A DNA stretch of 64,000 nt from Mesorhizobium sp. ZC-5 (GTDB taxonomy: Bacteria; Pseudomonadota; Alphaproteobacteria; Rhizobiales; Rhizobiaceae), in NCBI RefSeq assembly GCF_025753855.1, contig NZ_JAOWPT010000003.1, forward strand, positions 124,001 through 188,000, written 5' to 3'. Below, piece after piece: positions 3 through 60,314 of the stretch; position 1 is the first letter of the stretch; each line of letters begins with the position of its first letter. Made by a program: the position numbers and the translations under genes. Below the pieces are notes generated by a model. It worked only from the letters and a program-made list of their open reading frames with translations. It ran no database searches and was not told the origin of the DNA.

Positions 3-677
3 ATCAATCCGGCGGTCTTCCCGCCGATCGACATGATCGTTGCGGCTTTGTGGAAGGGCATTGCCGGGGGAGCGCTGCTCGACGACATCGCCATCAGCCT
101 GCAGCGCTCGGGTACCGCGTTCGTGGCGGCGGTGCTGGTGGCCATTCCGCTCGGCCTCTTCATGGGGCAGGTGAGGGCGGTGGAAACCGCGCTCGACCCG
201 ATCCTGCAGCTCTTCCGGCAGACATCCGCACTCGCGCTCTACCCGGTGTTCATCTTGCTGCTCGGGCTCGGCGAGACCTCGAAGATTTTCGTGATCTTCT
301 GGGCGACGCTGTTTCCGCTGCTCTTGAACACCATCAGCGGGGTCAAGGAGGTCGATCCGAAGTTGATCGAGATGGCGCGGGTCTACGGCGCATCGCGGCT
401 GACCGTATTCCGCCGCGTCGTGCTGCCCGGAGCGGTGCCCTCGATCTTCGTCGGCCTGAGGCTCTCCGCGACCACGGCGCTGCTGCTTCTCATCGCCTCA
501 GAAATGATCGGCGCCAACAAGGGCGTCGGCTTCCAGGTGATGAACGCGCAGTACAATTTCCAGATACCGCTGATGTTCGCGGCGATCATGCTGCTCGCCG
601 GCCTCGGCCTCATCTCCAACTATCTGCTGGTCACGCTGCAGCGGCGGCTGTGCCGCTGGAGCGACGCGGCCATCTGA
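3..677 (+). CDS. ABC transporter permease, SsuC/TauC-like (5' end outside window)
   Basis: Inner-membrane permease of an ABC importer of the aliphatic sulfonate/nitrate/taurine class. The frame stays open to the left edge, so residues before the ATG at 33 (INPAVFPPID...) belong to the protein and the true start lies upstream. The cytoplasmic coupling loop of the BPD_transp_1 fold is visible (MARVYGAS...LPGAVPSIF), flanked by hydrophobic helices. It is followed after 48 bp by the binding protein and then the ATPase, which completes the importer. The substrate cannot be told from sequence alone; sulfonates, nitrate and pyrimidine precursors all use this family. Confidence 0.88.
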   Translation: MNPAVFPPIDMIVAALWKGIAGGALLDDIAISLQRSGTAFVAAVLVAIPLGLFMGQVRAVETALDPILQLFRQTSALALYPVFILLLGLGETSKIFVIFWATLFPLLLNTISGVKEVDPKLIEMARVYGASRLTVFRRVVLPGAVPSIFVGLRLSATTALLLLIASEMIGANKGVGFQVMNAQYNFQIPLMFAAIMLLAGLGLISNYLLVTLQRRLCRWSDAAI

Positions 678-15421: not shown

Positions 15422-15512
15422 TGGCGGAGAGGATGGGATTCGAACCCACGAGGCCCTTTTGAGGCCTACTCCCTTAGCAGGGGAGCGCCTTCGACCACTC
15501 GGCCACCTCTCC
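15422..15512 (-). tRNA. tRNA-Ser (anticodon GCU)
   Basis: The complementary strand folds into a 91-nt serine tRNA. The acceptor stem GGAGAGG/CCTCTCC and discriminator G are followed by an encoded CCA (15422-15424). The anticodon loop is CTGCTAA within stem CTCCC/GGGAG, giving GCU for AGC/AGU codons. The long variable arm (TAGGCCTC-AAAA-GGGCCTC region) is typical of tRNA-Ser, and the T arm is GTGGG-TTCGAAT-CCCAT. Confidence 0.97.
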
Positions 15513-28779: not shown

Positions 28780-28904
28780 CTCTCTCCCCGTTCACGGGGA
28801 GAGAGGTCCGGCAGGACAGTGAGGGGCGACGCAAACGTTGGAAGTCAAGCGCCGCCCCTCATCCGTCAGTTCGTGACACCTTCTCCCTGCAAGCGGGGAG
28901 AAGG
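28780..28904. repeat. Intergenic palindromic repeat inside the sugar ABC operon
   Basis: Three nested or adjacent inverted repeats: CTCTCTCCCC/GGGGAGAGAG (28780-28789, 28796-28805), GAGGGGCG/CGCCCCTC (28821-28828, 28853-28860) and CCTTCTCCC/GGGAGAAGG (28879-28887, 28896-28904). The segment GTCCGGCAGGACAG after the first palindrome is also found in the element at 60158-60314, so it belongs to the same dispersed family. Being between the binding-protein and permease genes, it may stabilise the upstream part of the transcript, as such elements do in other sugar operons. Confidence 0.65.
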
Positions 28905-58101: not shown

Positions 58102-58260
58102 TCAGGCGGCTTTCACAACCTTGGCTGTGTTGGCGGTACGCTTCTTGGTGATGCAGATCAGCGCCGCCTGCAGGGAGGCCGGGCCAATGGCGCGGTATTG
58201 TTTCGCGAGGTCGGCATGTTGAGCGCGGGCACGTTCGGCTTCGCTCTGTTTTCGGGGCAT
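58102..58260 (-). CDS. Small basic protein of 52 residues
   Basis: Short gene reading MPRKQSEAERARAQHADLAKQY... and ending in a Lys/Ala-rich tail (ITKKRTANTAKVVKAA). ATG 58260 is preceded by AAGGGAAGAG, a good ribosome site, which is the main reason to accept it. It is nucleic-acid-binding-like in charge, but no family is recognised. It is convergent with the ArgO-like gene, with only 3 bp between the stops. Confidence 0.6.
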   Translation of the reverse strand: MPRKQSEAERARAQHADLAKQYRAIGPASLQAALICITKKRTANTAKVVKAA

Positions 58261-58443
58261 TGTTCTCTTCCCTAAGGTCATGTTGCGTTGAGAGGGCCGG
58301 GAATGATGGTTGAATGGGTCGAAATCGTGACGCCGCACCAATTAACCGCCGGTACTCCTGTTTTCTTGTATAGACATGTTTAATAAAAACTTACGGATCG
58401 GGATGGTTCCGAAAAAGCGACATCTTTCCTTCGAGAATGCGGC

Positions 58444-58472
58444 TTGACGGCAACAGTCGGCAGGGCGATAAA
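58444..58472 (+). promoter_or_regulatory. Promoter of the cysS leader transcript
   Basis: TTGACG (58444-58449), 17 bp, GATAAA (58467-58472) is a good sigma70-type promoter. The expected +1 falls at about 58478-58480, i.e. at the A of the leader peptide ATG (58480). A leaderless leader peptide of this kind is known for the trp attenuator of Sinorhizobium. The 180 bp upstream of it (58261-58443) hold no gene or site that I can support. Confidence 0.65.
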
Positions 58473-58479
58473 GCCGGCA

Positions 58480-58524
58480 ATGAAAACGTCTTTCGCCATT
58501 TGCGGCATTTGCATTATTGGCTAG
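58480..58524 (+). CDS. Cysteine-containing leader peptide upstream of cysS
   Basis: A 14-codon ORF, MKTSFAICGICIIG, ends in TAG (58522-58524). Two of its codons are TGC (58501-58503, 58510-58512), notable because the downstream gene encodes cysteinyl-tRNA synthetase. There is no Shine-Dalgarno sequence, but the predicted transcription start coincides with the ATG, so translation may be leaderless. It is followed by mutually exclusive RNA helices that end in a terminator. Confidence 0.6.
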   Translation: MKTSFAICGICIIG

Positions 58525-58606
58525 CGCCAAGCGCTGGACCGGACGTTTTCGCCCTTCTCTCGACAGGAAAAGCAAACGCCCCGGCCAGCAGGCCAGGGGA
58601 TTTTTT
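58523..58606 (+). promoter_or_regulatory. Ribosome-mediated attenuator of cysS
   Basis: Three RNA helices compete. Pause-like hairpin: AGCGC/GCGCT (58523-58527, 58531-58535). Antiterminator: GCTGG-A-CCGG (58533-58542) with CCGGCCAGC (58581-58589), 9 bp with one bulged A. Terminator: CCCCGGCC (58579-58586) with GGCC-A-GGGG (58591-58599), followed by six T (58601-58606). A ribosome stalled on the leader Cys codons would leave 58533-58542 free, so the antiterminator forms. One that reaches the stop codon would cover it, so the terminator forms. The helices are read from sequence; the regulation is inferred. Confidence 0.65.
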
Positions 58607-58608
58607 GC

Positions 58609-60123
<1,515 letters not shown>

Positions 60124-60157: not shown

Positions 60158-60314
60158 CCCCCCTCTGTCCTGCCGGACATCTCCCCCACAAGGGGGGAGA
60201 TTAGGCCGGCCGCTTTCGCCGCGCTGCATTTTGCAACGTTTGCGATCAGCGAAAGCAGAGATGACAGCCAATCTCCCCCCTTGTGGGGGAGATGTCCGGC
60301 AGGACAGAGGGGGG
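60158..60314. repeat. 157-bp perfect inverted-repeat element
   Basis: Perfect 45-bp arms (60158-60202 and 60270-60314) flank a 67-bp centre that itself contains GCTTTCG/CGAAAGC (60212-60218, 60250-60256). The arms include CTCCCCC-ACAAG-GGGGGAG and GTCCGGCAGGACAG, shared with the elements at 5831-5862 and 28780-28904. The structure is like a MITE or nested palindromic repeat with no coding capacity. It also separates cysS from the next operon and may end cysS transcription. Confidence 0.85.

Follow-up and report, generated by a model that had tools for sequence, protein, structure and literature searches.

The gene for cysteinyl-tRNA synthetase, cysS, of Mesorhizobium sp. ZC-5 is probably controlled by a ribosome-mediated transcription attenuator that senses charged tRNA-Cys. 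The element lies in a stretch of 64,000 nucleotides, referred to here as the window, and positions are those of its plus strand unless stated otherwise. The evidence is computational and consists of conservation among relatives, covariation of three helices (the start-codon stem 1:2, the stop-codon stem and the antiterminator 2:3) and switching in a folding model. From it we infer the start site, translation and termination of the leader, and also its response to cysteine, which the codons of the leader, the function of the gene behind it and the folding model together suggest. An earlier note on this DNA had read the region as a ribosome-mediated attenuator, and the conserved leader ORF with its Cys codons, the covariation and the predicted switch all support that reading.

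cysS (58609-60123) encodes a protein of 504 amino acids that scores 408 bits against TIGR00435, and it is the sole match in its own genome above the cut-off of 340. Upstream lies a sigma70-type promoter, TTGACG-17-GATAAA, at 58444-58472 (TTGACG at 58444-58449, GATAAA at 58467-58472). The -10 sequence is separated by 7 nt from the ATG (58480) of a 14-codon ORF, MKTSFAICGICIIG, which occupies 58480-58524, ends with TAG at 58522-58524 and carries TGC codons at 58501-58503 (Cys8) and 58510-58512 (Cys11). Judged from the sequence and from relatives this ORF is probably leaderless, and the first base of the leader RNA could be A58479 or A58480. The MFE fold and a partner-swap test described below support two stems that involve the ends of the ORF: the start-codon stem 1:2, spanning 58482-58550 (arms 58482-58491 and 58541-58550), and, nested within it, the stop-codon stem, GGCTAGCGC : GCGCTGG(A)CC, spanning 58519-58540 (arms 58519-58527 and 58531-58540), which masks the 5' half of arm 2. 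The antiterminator 2:3 (58533-58589; arms 58533-58548 and 58574-58589) is supported by covariation, folding and partner-swap. Its core of 9 bp joins 58533-58537 to 58585-58589 and 58539-58542 to 58581-58584, leaving A58538 bulged, and is extendable by 58544-58548 (CGTTT) with 58574-58578 (AAACG) to as many as 14 bp with one bulge and one mismatch. The end of arm 2 and the bases beyond it form a pyrimidine-rich stretch (58546-58558) that is U-rich in relatives. The intrinsic terminator 3:4 (58579-58606), recognized from sequence and folding, consists of a bulged 8-bp GC hairpin at 58579-58599, in which 58579-58582 pair with 58596-58599 and 58583-58586 with 58591-58594 around a loop at 58587-58590 and a bulged A58595, followed by A58600 and a U6 tract (58601-58606) that ends two bases 5' of the cysS ATG. 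The earlier note had correctly placed the promoter, the ORF with its two TGC codons, the 9-bp antiterminator with its single bulge (58533-58542 with 58581-58589), the terminator with its six T and the two-base spacing to cysS, and it had overlooked the start-codon and stop-codon stems. It had also denied cysS a ribosome site; an SD-like AGGGG (58595-58599) does exist, in terminator arm 4 and 9 nt 5' of the ATG, with a pairing energy of -6.5 kcal/mol to an anti-SD tail.

The RNA from 58480 to 58611 folds at -51.4 kcal/mol against a mean of -39.2 for shuffled sequences (z -3.44), and is more stable than 200 of 200 shuffles. At least two Cys in 13 codons has a p of about 0.012, given the Cys frequency of the seven window ORFs taken as coding sequences. 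The count is modest evidence by itself, and it is mainly conservation in relatives that lifts the leader above chance. A simple scan of the plus strand for promoters and terminators picked up neither the promoter of the cysS leader nor terminator 3:4; GATAAA goes unscored because the scan requires a final T in the -10 sequence, and the bulge is taken to be the reason in the case of the hairpin. On the minus strand the terminator hairpin (58579-58598) is followed by CGTTTGCTTT and scores as terminator-like. A short minus-strand ORF is found just 5' of the cysS leader (58102-58341; 79 amino acids from TTG, with an inner ATG start, MPRKQSEAERARAQHADLAKQYRAIG...). The window also contains a dispersed repeat, CTGTCCTGCCGGACATCTCCCCC, at 28797-28819, 60165-60187 and 60285-60307, with two exact copies and one with 2 mismatches where none are expected; similar stretches occur in L006 (G030) and L019 (G022).

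Toeprint data lead one to expect that a ribosome covers 12-13 nt. In our folding model the footprint was assumed to be 15 nt long, counted from the start of the A-site codon, the window RNA extended to 58606, and folding was treated as an equilibrium that ignores kinetics. Without a ribosome, stem 1:2 is formed (P 1.0 for the pair 58487-58545) and 3:4 has a P of 0.947-1.0. When Cys8 occupies the A site the terminator stays on (3:4 P 0.97-1.0) because the stop-codon stem re-forms. When Cys11 occupies it, 2:3 reaches a P of 0.956-0.996 and 3:4 drops to 0.003; at Ile12 the two values are about 0.69 and about 0.3, and at the stop codon 3:4 is back at 0.966-1.0. In the window, terminator and antiterminator are thus predicted to be mutually exclusive through a shared arm, with the position of the ribosome deciding between them. 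Equal weight for both Cys codons was rejected, a stall at Cys8 being predicted to leave the switch OFF. Across the 59 leaders assembled below, 2:3 is expected to have on average 6.4 pairs with no ribosome, 12.0 with the ribosome at the last Cys and 6.1 with it at the stop codon. A stall at the last Cys, compared with the stop codon, raises 2:3 in 39 of the 59 leaders, each time by more than 2 pairs, and lowers it in none with the 15-nt footprint; the corresponding numbers up and down are 32 and 10 with a footprint of 12, 37 and 4 with 13, and 42 and 0 with 18. Relative to ribosome-free RNA the same stall gives more 2:3 in 40 of these leaders and less in 2. When all codons were scanned, the best stall positions for 2:3 were stop-2 to stop-5.

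We propose that the switch would work as follows. The first base of the leader transcript would be the A of the start codon of the 14-codon ORF or the base preceding it. As long as the leader is untranslated, the start-codon region would pair with arm 2 (1:2) and the stop codon with the 5' half of arm 2; with arm 2 occupied, arm 3 would be available for terminator 3:4, and transcription would stop just 5' of cysS. With ample charged tRNA-Cys, a ribosome at the stop codon would cover the 5' half of arm 2, 3:4 would form and cysS would be OFF. With scarce charged tRNA-Cys, the ribosome would stall at Cys11 and cover the start- and stop-codon arms, so that arm 2 could pair with arm 3; no terminator would then form, the SD-like sequence of arm 4 would be unlocked from 3:4, and cysS would be ON.

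Of 61 related genomes 59 have a CysS match, and the upstream regions of 57 were used (those of G027 and G050 are cut by a contig edge). A strict rule, asking for a TTGA-type promoter, 3-9 nt from the -10 sequence to the start codon and a short ORF with Cys, finds a leader upstream of cysS in 36 of the 57 genomes, and a looser rule adds seven more (G028, G040, G041, G048, G053, G055 and G056). The 39 leader rows of alignment A1, from which G057, G042, G060, G019 and G020 were excluded, served to build a covariance model that includes helix 2:3. This model has one strong match in the genome of the window (5e-22, the next being 0.33), and a second leader site there was accordingly rejected. The model matches all three genomes of the genus. 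Within the order, matches at E<=0.01 come from 223 of 297 genomes, which represent 99 of 118 genera; at E<=1e-4 about 206 genomes of the order match by our own count. cysS is directly downstream in all 29 of the order loci inspected, which were the best-scoring ones and include five genomes used to build the model, and the weakest of the 223 matches may include false ones. In a class-wide search 59 of 387 genomes match at E<=0.1, and these matches are taken to be mostly chance. Outside the order, cysS lies directly downstream of 6 of 6 class matches with E<=1e-4 and of 4 of 12 with E 0.001-0.0125. Four genomes of family f68 of the same class, which we take to be Rhodobacteraceae, match the model before cysS (E 1.9e-6 to 0.004).

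Leaders for comparison came from 172 sequences, of which 11 had no located cysS start; many of the remaining 161 cysS upstream regions had been fetched because of a match to the model. A TTGA-spaced short ATG ORF is present in 95 of the 161 and contains Cys in 90 of the 95, the ORF with the most Cys having been chosen where several fitted upstream of one cysS. None of the five Cys-less ORFs resembles the leader motif. Five Cys ORFs were dropped by eye (G057, L146, L151, L155 and L170; the one of L155 is perhaps genuine, and a better leader was found for L151), leaving 85 leaders. Reduction by similarity gave the set of 59, composed of 34 from related genomes, 15 found with the model containing 2:3 and 10 named ones; 7 of the 59 are counted as Rhodobacterales. 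The kept leaders have 11 to 28 codons, and the distance from TTGA to ATG is 35-37 nt in 82 of the 85 chosen by a 33-39 nt rule. Examples from Hyphomicrobiales are MKTVICIICRKIIR in Rhizobium leguminosarum and Ensifer adhaerens, MNGHLEICSICREIIS in Bradyrhizobium and the Mesorhizobium leader given above; examples from Rhodobacteraceae are MNTNTLIICCITC in a Roseobacter MAG and MSTAPCIICCIIR in Roseovarius gaetbuli.

Named loci were fetched by means of the CysS of G463, one of the matches outside the order (best 80 of at least 590), and the top-ranked named ones come mostly from Rhodobacteraceae genera. A promoter-free rule, asking for a short ORF before cysS with Cys in the last nine residues and Ile near the end, selects an ORF at 24 of 28 Rhodobacteraceae-like loci and at 18 of 50 other loci with enough upstream sequence, in both cases among the best 80 of at least 590. 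By our own count the Cys codons are adjacent in 17 of these 24 ORFs. Some of the 18 (L177, L180, L184, L206 and L210) look like chance. By this rule the Azospirillum, Asticcacaulis and Porphyrobacter loci have no such ORF, and the eight gammaproteobacterial loci (L194, L197, L198, L201, L204, L206, L207 and L209) have only the chance-like one of L206. Many Rhodobacteraceae loci fail the stricter TTGA-promoter rule, and therefore the spacing or the sequence of the promoter differs there. That the element is a leader or riboswitch already in Rfam was rejected: Rfam 15 gave no gathering-score match in the leader, where weak matches on the other strand (E 1.3-5.4) were all that appeared, and no match at E<=0.01 in 8 related cysS loci. 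The only gathering-score Rfam match of the window is its sole tRNA, a tRNA-Ser(GCT) on the minus strand (15422-15512).

On A1, helix 2:3 is paired in 84.4% of cells. Of its 14 pairs, 6 have changed on both sides, and 42 of 500 shuffles have at least as many; there are 18 further pair types (101 of 500), and the covariation score is 0.183 (1 of 500). Helix 1:2 is paired in 83.5% of cells (0 of 500 shuffles), with both-side changes in 3 of 8 pairs (61 of 500), and 29 of 500 shuffles equal or exceed its covariation score. Variable leaders are misaligned by MAFFT, and the partner-swap test was therefore added, in which the pairing energy of a leader's own arms is compared with that of pairing with the arms of other species across the 59 leaders of limited similarity. 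Its z, which takes the leaders as independent and is uncorrected for relatedness, is -9.9 for 1:2, -9.1 for the stop-codon stem, -4.7 for 2:3 and -0.3 to +2.6 for five unrelated arm pairs. Arm 2 with the SD, a pair earlier intended as a control, gave -2.45, and values near -3 are therefore viewed with caution. When the letters of one arm were shuffled, z was below -1.64 in 46 of 59 leaders for 1:2, in 50 for the stop-codon stem and in 27 for 2:3. The earlier note had named loss of the ORF or its Cys codons in relatives, and covariation that keeps only the terminator hairpin, as findings that would tell against it; instead the ORF and its Cys codons are conserved, and 1:2, the stop-codon stem and 2:3 covary.

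The conservation proposed there as a check was found for the leader ORF, the Cys codons and the antiterminator, but the terminator is not kept beyond a few relatives. Among 345 genomes of the family, a strict pattern of arm 3 with six T after it is present in 9, in three of them before cysS (the window, G002 and G841), and its reversed control in 2. A general scan finds a hairpin with a U-tract in 3 of 58 leaders, G031 being left out of the SD and terminator counts for its misplaced cysS start. Pairing of 3:4 across the leaders does not surpass that of shuffles, with 8 of 59 leaders in their top tenth. A terminator general among the relatives was rejected on the counts of 3 in 58 and 3 in 345 and on this comparison with shuffles; 3:4 is local to few of them.

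The main OFF step might instead be translational, which we consider unlikely. Without 2:3 the SD of cysS would be locked, by arm 3 in the window and by the stretch after arm 2 in others, and the U-tract of the window would be secondary. The position of AGGGG within arm 4 suits this explanation, as does G001 of the same genus, which retains the hairpin and SD with AAAAC in place of the U-tract, and G004, G016, G023 and L181 are clear single cases. The stretch after arm 2 gives a partner-swap z of -3.6 with the SD, but it stands above one-arm letter shuffles (z below -1.64) in 14 of 59 leaders, and arm 3 with the SD gives a z of -0.8 (8 of 59 in the shuffles). SD locking is no better than in shuffled letters across 58 leaders, 9 of which fall in the lowest tenth (Wilcoxon p 0.15), and the window has a clean U6 tract. 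Between stall and stop, SD accessibility rises in 34 and falls in 6 of 85 leaders, with a mean change of 0.05. General SD locking was rejected on this mean change and on the comparison with shuffles.

A U-rich tract follows arm 2 in relatives (stop+16 to stop+41), where T makes up 41% at stop+26..33 as against 5-9% at stop+50..73; an 8-nt segment with 5 or more T is found there in 40 of 59 leaders, and in 0 of 59 for a control stretch with an equal number of windows. The tract could be an RNA polymerase pause site or an early terminator tract. It is conceivable, if improbable, that the 1:2 hairpin enclosing the leader ORF is itself a terminator or pause hairpin with this tract behind arm 2, that a stalled ribosome blocks 1:2, and that the 3:4 terminator is a local addition. 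The first stem described for Rhodobacterales in the text passages of PMC8632094, which holds the Cys codons, with a U-run at the 3' terminus, would agree with such an arrangement. Yet the tract is interrupted, its UUUU pairs with AAAA at the beginning of the leader in the window, G013 and G031, and 2:3 would be left without a clear role even though it covaries.

For the attenuator as a sensor of charged tRNA-Cys, the question is which codons it reads. The leader Cys codons comprise 98 TGC and 18 TGT, and their position and wobble base shift among leaders. In the 59 leaders, positions stop-2 to stop-5 are more often Ile than Cys; at the best stall positions Ile codons have a z of 5.6 and Cys codons one of 1.6, which is not clear as a class. 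The codon model suits Cys11 of the window well but by itself does not pick out Cys across the family. The argument for Cys rests mainly on the presence of Cys in the leaders and on the gene that is controlled.

A response to isoleucine besides cysteine is rather doubtful. Ile accounts for 28% of leader residues and occupies codon stop-3 (58513-58515 in the window) in 57 of 59 leaders, and both the z of Ile codons at the best stall positions and the 2:3 pairing predicted for a stall at Ile12 would fit a dual sensor. However, the codon at stop-3 is AUU, wobble base included, in 56 of 59 leaders despite a preference of the seven window ORFs for ATC over ATT of 76:21, which points to a nucleotide constraint. 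The NGC-UAG-C after this codon fits the stop-codon stem, and in the OFF fold predicted for the window AUU itself has no partner. Two deviating leaders also speak against dual sensing, MNTSLANCCRC of G020 with three Cys and no Ile and MKTMICCCC of G019 with four Cys and one Ile; they are natural contrasts for the question of Cys versus Ile. Isoleucine control of cysS is not known to be needed. Finally, it is very improbable that the ORF is incidental and that conservation concerns just an RNA structure to which a protein or small molecule binds: pairing constraint on the start- and stop-codon segments would make some codons look conserved anyway, but in ORFs of 11 to 28 codons the Cys codons stay in frame with an ATG at fixed promoter distance while shifting in position and wobble base, the controlled gene is the Cys synthetase, and Rfam gave no match.

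Attenuators of the trp/his/leu type use mutually exclusive pairings steered by the position of the ribosome. The cysS leader is predicted to share this principle, and its probably leaderless ORF of 14 codons is like trpL of S. meliloti, described in the main text of PMC10117765 as leaderless and translated. It differs from that type in controlling a tRNA synthetase, in having 1-4 scattered Cys codons, and in that its start and stop codons are both inside stems. Like the leaders of the actinobacterial cys and cbs operons, for which PMC1262725 reports Cys leader peptides and no conserved terminator, it is a short Cys-codon ORF upstream of a cysteine gene; those leaders precede other genes in another phylum. 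Regulatory Cys codons are also mentioned for leaders of M. tuberculosis in PMC13236596. The main text of PMC10117765 and the accessible text of PMC1273637 contain no mention of cysS. The earlier note knew of no described Cys-leader attenuator of cysS in this group. For Rhizobiales/Hyphomicrobiales this stands, as none was found in the literature covered, which included few subscription papers and no supplements, but in Rhodobacterales Cys-leader control of cysS is already known from the published description of uORFC-8-2 (PMC8632094).

According to the text passages on uORFC-8-2, its 145 examples are all upstream of cysS and all from Rhodobacterales; an AUG uORF has tandem Cys codons that mostly occupy positions 14 and 15, there are two stems, the first of which holds the Cys codons, a U-run stands at the 3' terminus in all cases, and ribosome-mediated attenuation is presumed (PMC8632094). 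Compared by this text description, the window leader is likewise upstream of cysS, has an AUG ORF with conserved Cys codons and is proposed to act by ribosome-mediated attenuation; its stem 1:2 encloses these codons and it has a U6 tract, which may correspond to the published first stem and U-run. Unlike uORFC-8-2, its Cys codons are Cys8 and Cys11 of 14 with two codons between them, it comes from another order, it has a predicted antiterminator and stop-codon stem, neither of which is named in those passages, and a U-tract after 3:4 is rare among its relatives. The two are very probably homologous, because the model matches before cysS of f68 and because there are Rhodobacteraceae-like leaders with Cys/Ile tails; since it departs from the tandem codons and the order given in the published text, we call the window element a variant.

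A wider reading, which we think quite unlikely as a whole, is that one ancestral alphaproteobacterial cysS attenuator, present in Hyphomicrobiales, Rhodobacterales and some others, has kept its core, swapped its output and reads isoleucine as well as cysteine. The core would comprise the leaderless start, the start-codon stem, the stop-codon stem and the antiterminator; the swapped outputs would be the 3:4 terminator, 1:2 as a terminator or pause hairpin, and SD locking; and the near-invariant AUU with the Ile-rich tail would reflect the reading of isoleucine. Excess cysteine inhibits threonine deaminase and starves cells of isoleucine. If the wider reading were true, isoleucine starvation caused by cysteine would give a double reading of Cys and Ile a purpose. 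The probable attenuator of the window would carry control of cysS by a Cys leader beyond one order and into another large one, to which root-nodule symbionts belong. It also supplements the published text on uORFC-8-2 with two helices and a switch model that can be tested. With a conserved reading part and a seemingly changing output part, it is a good system for the study of switch evolution.
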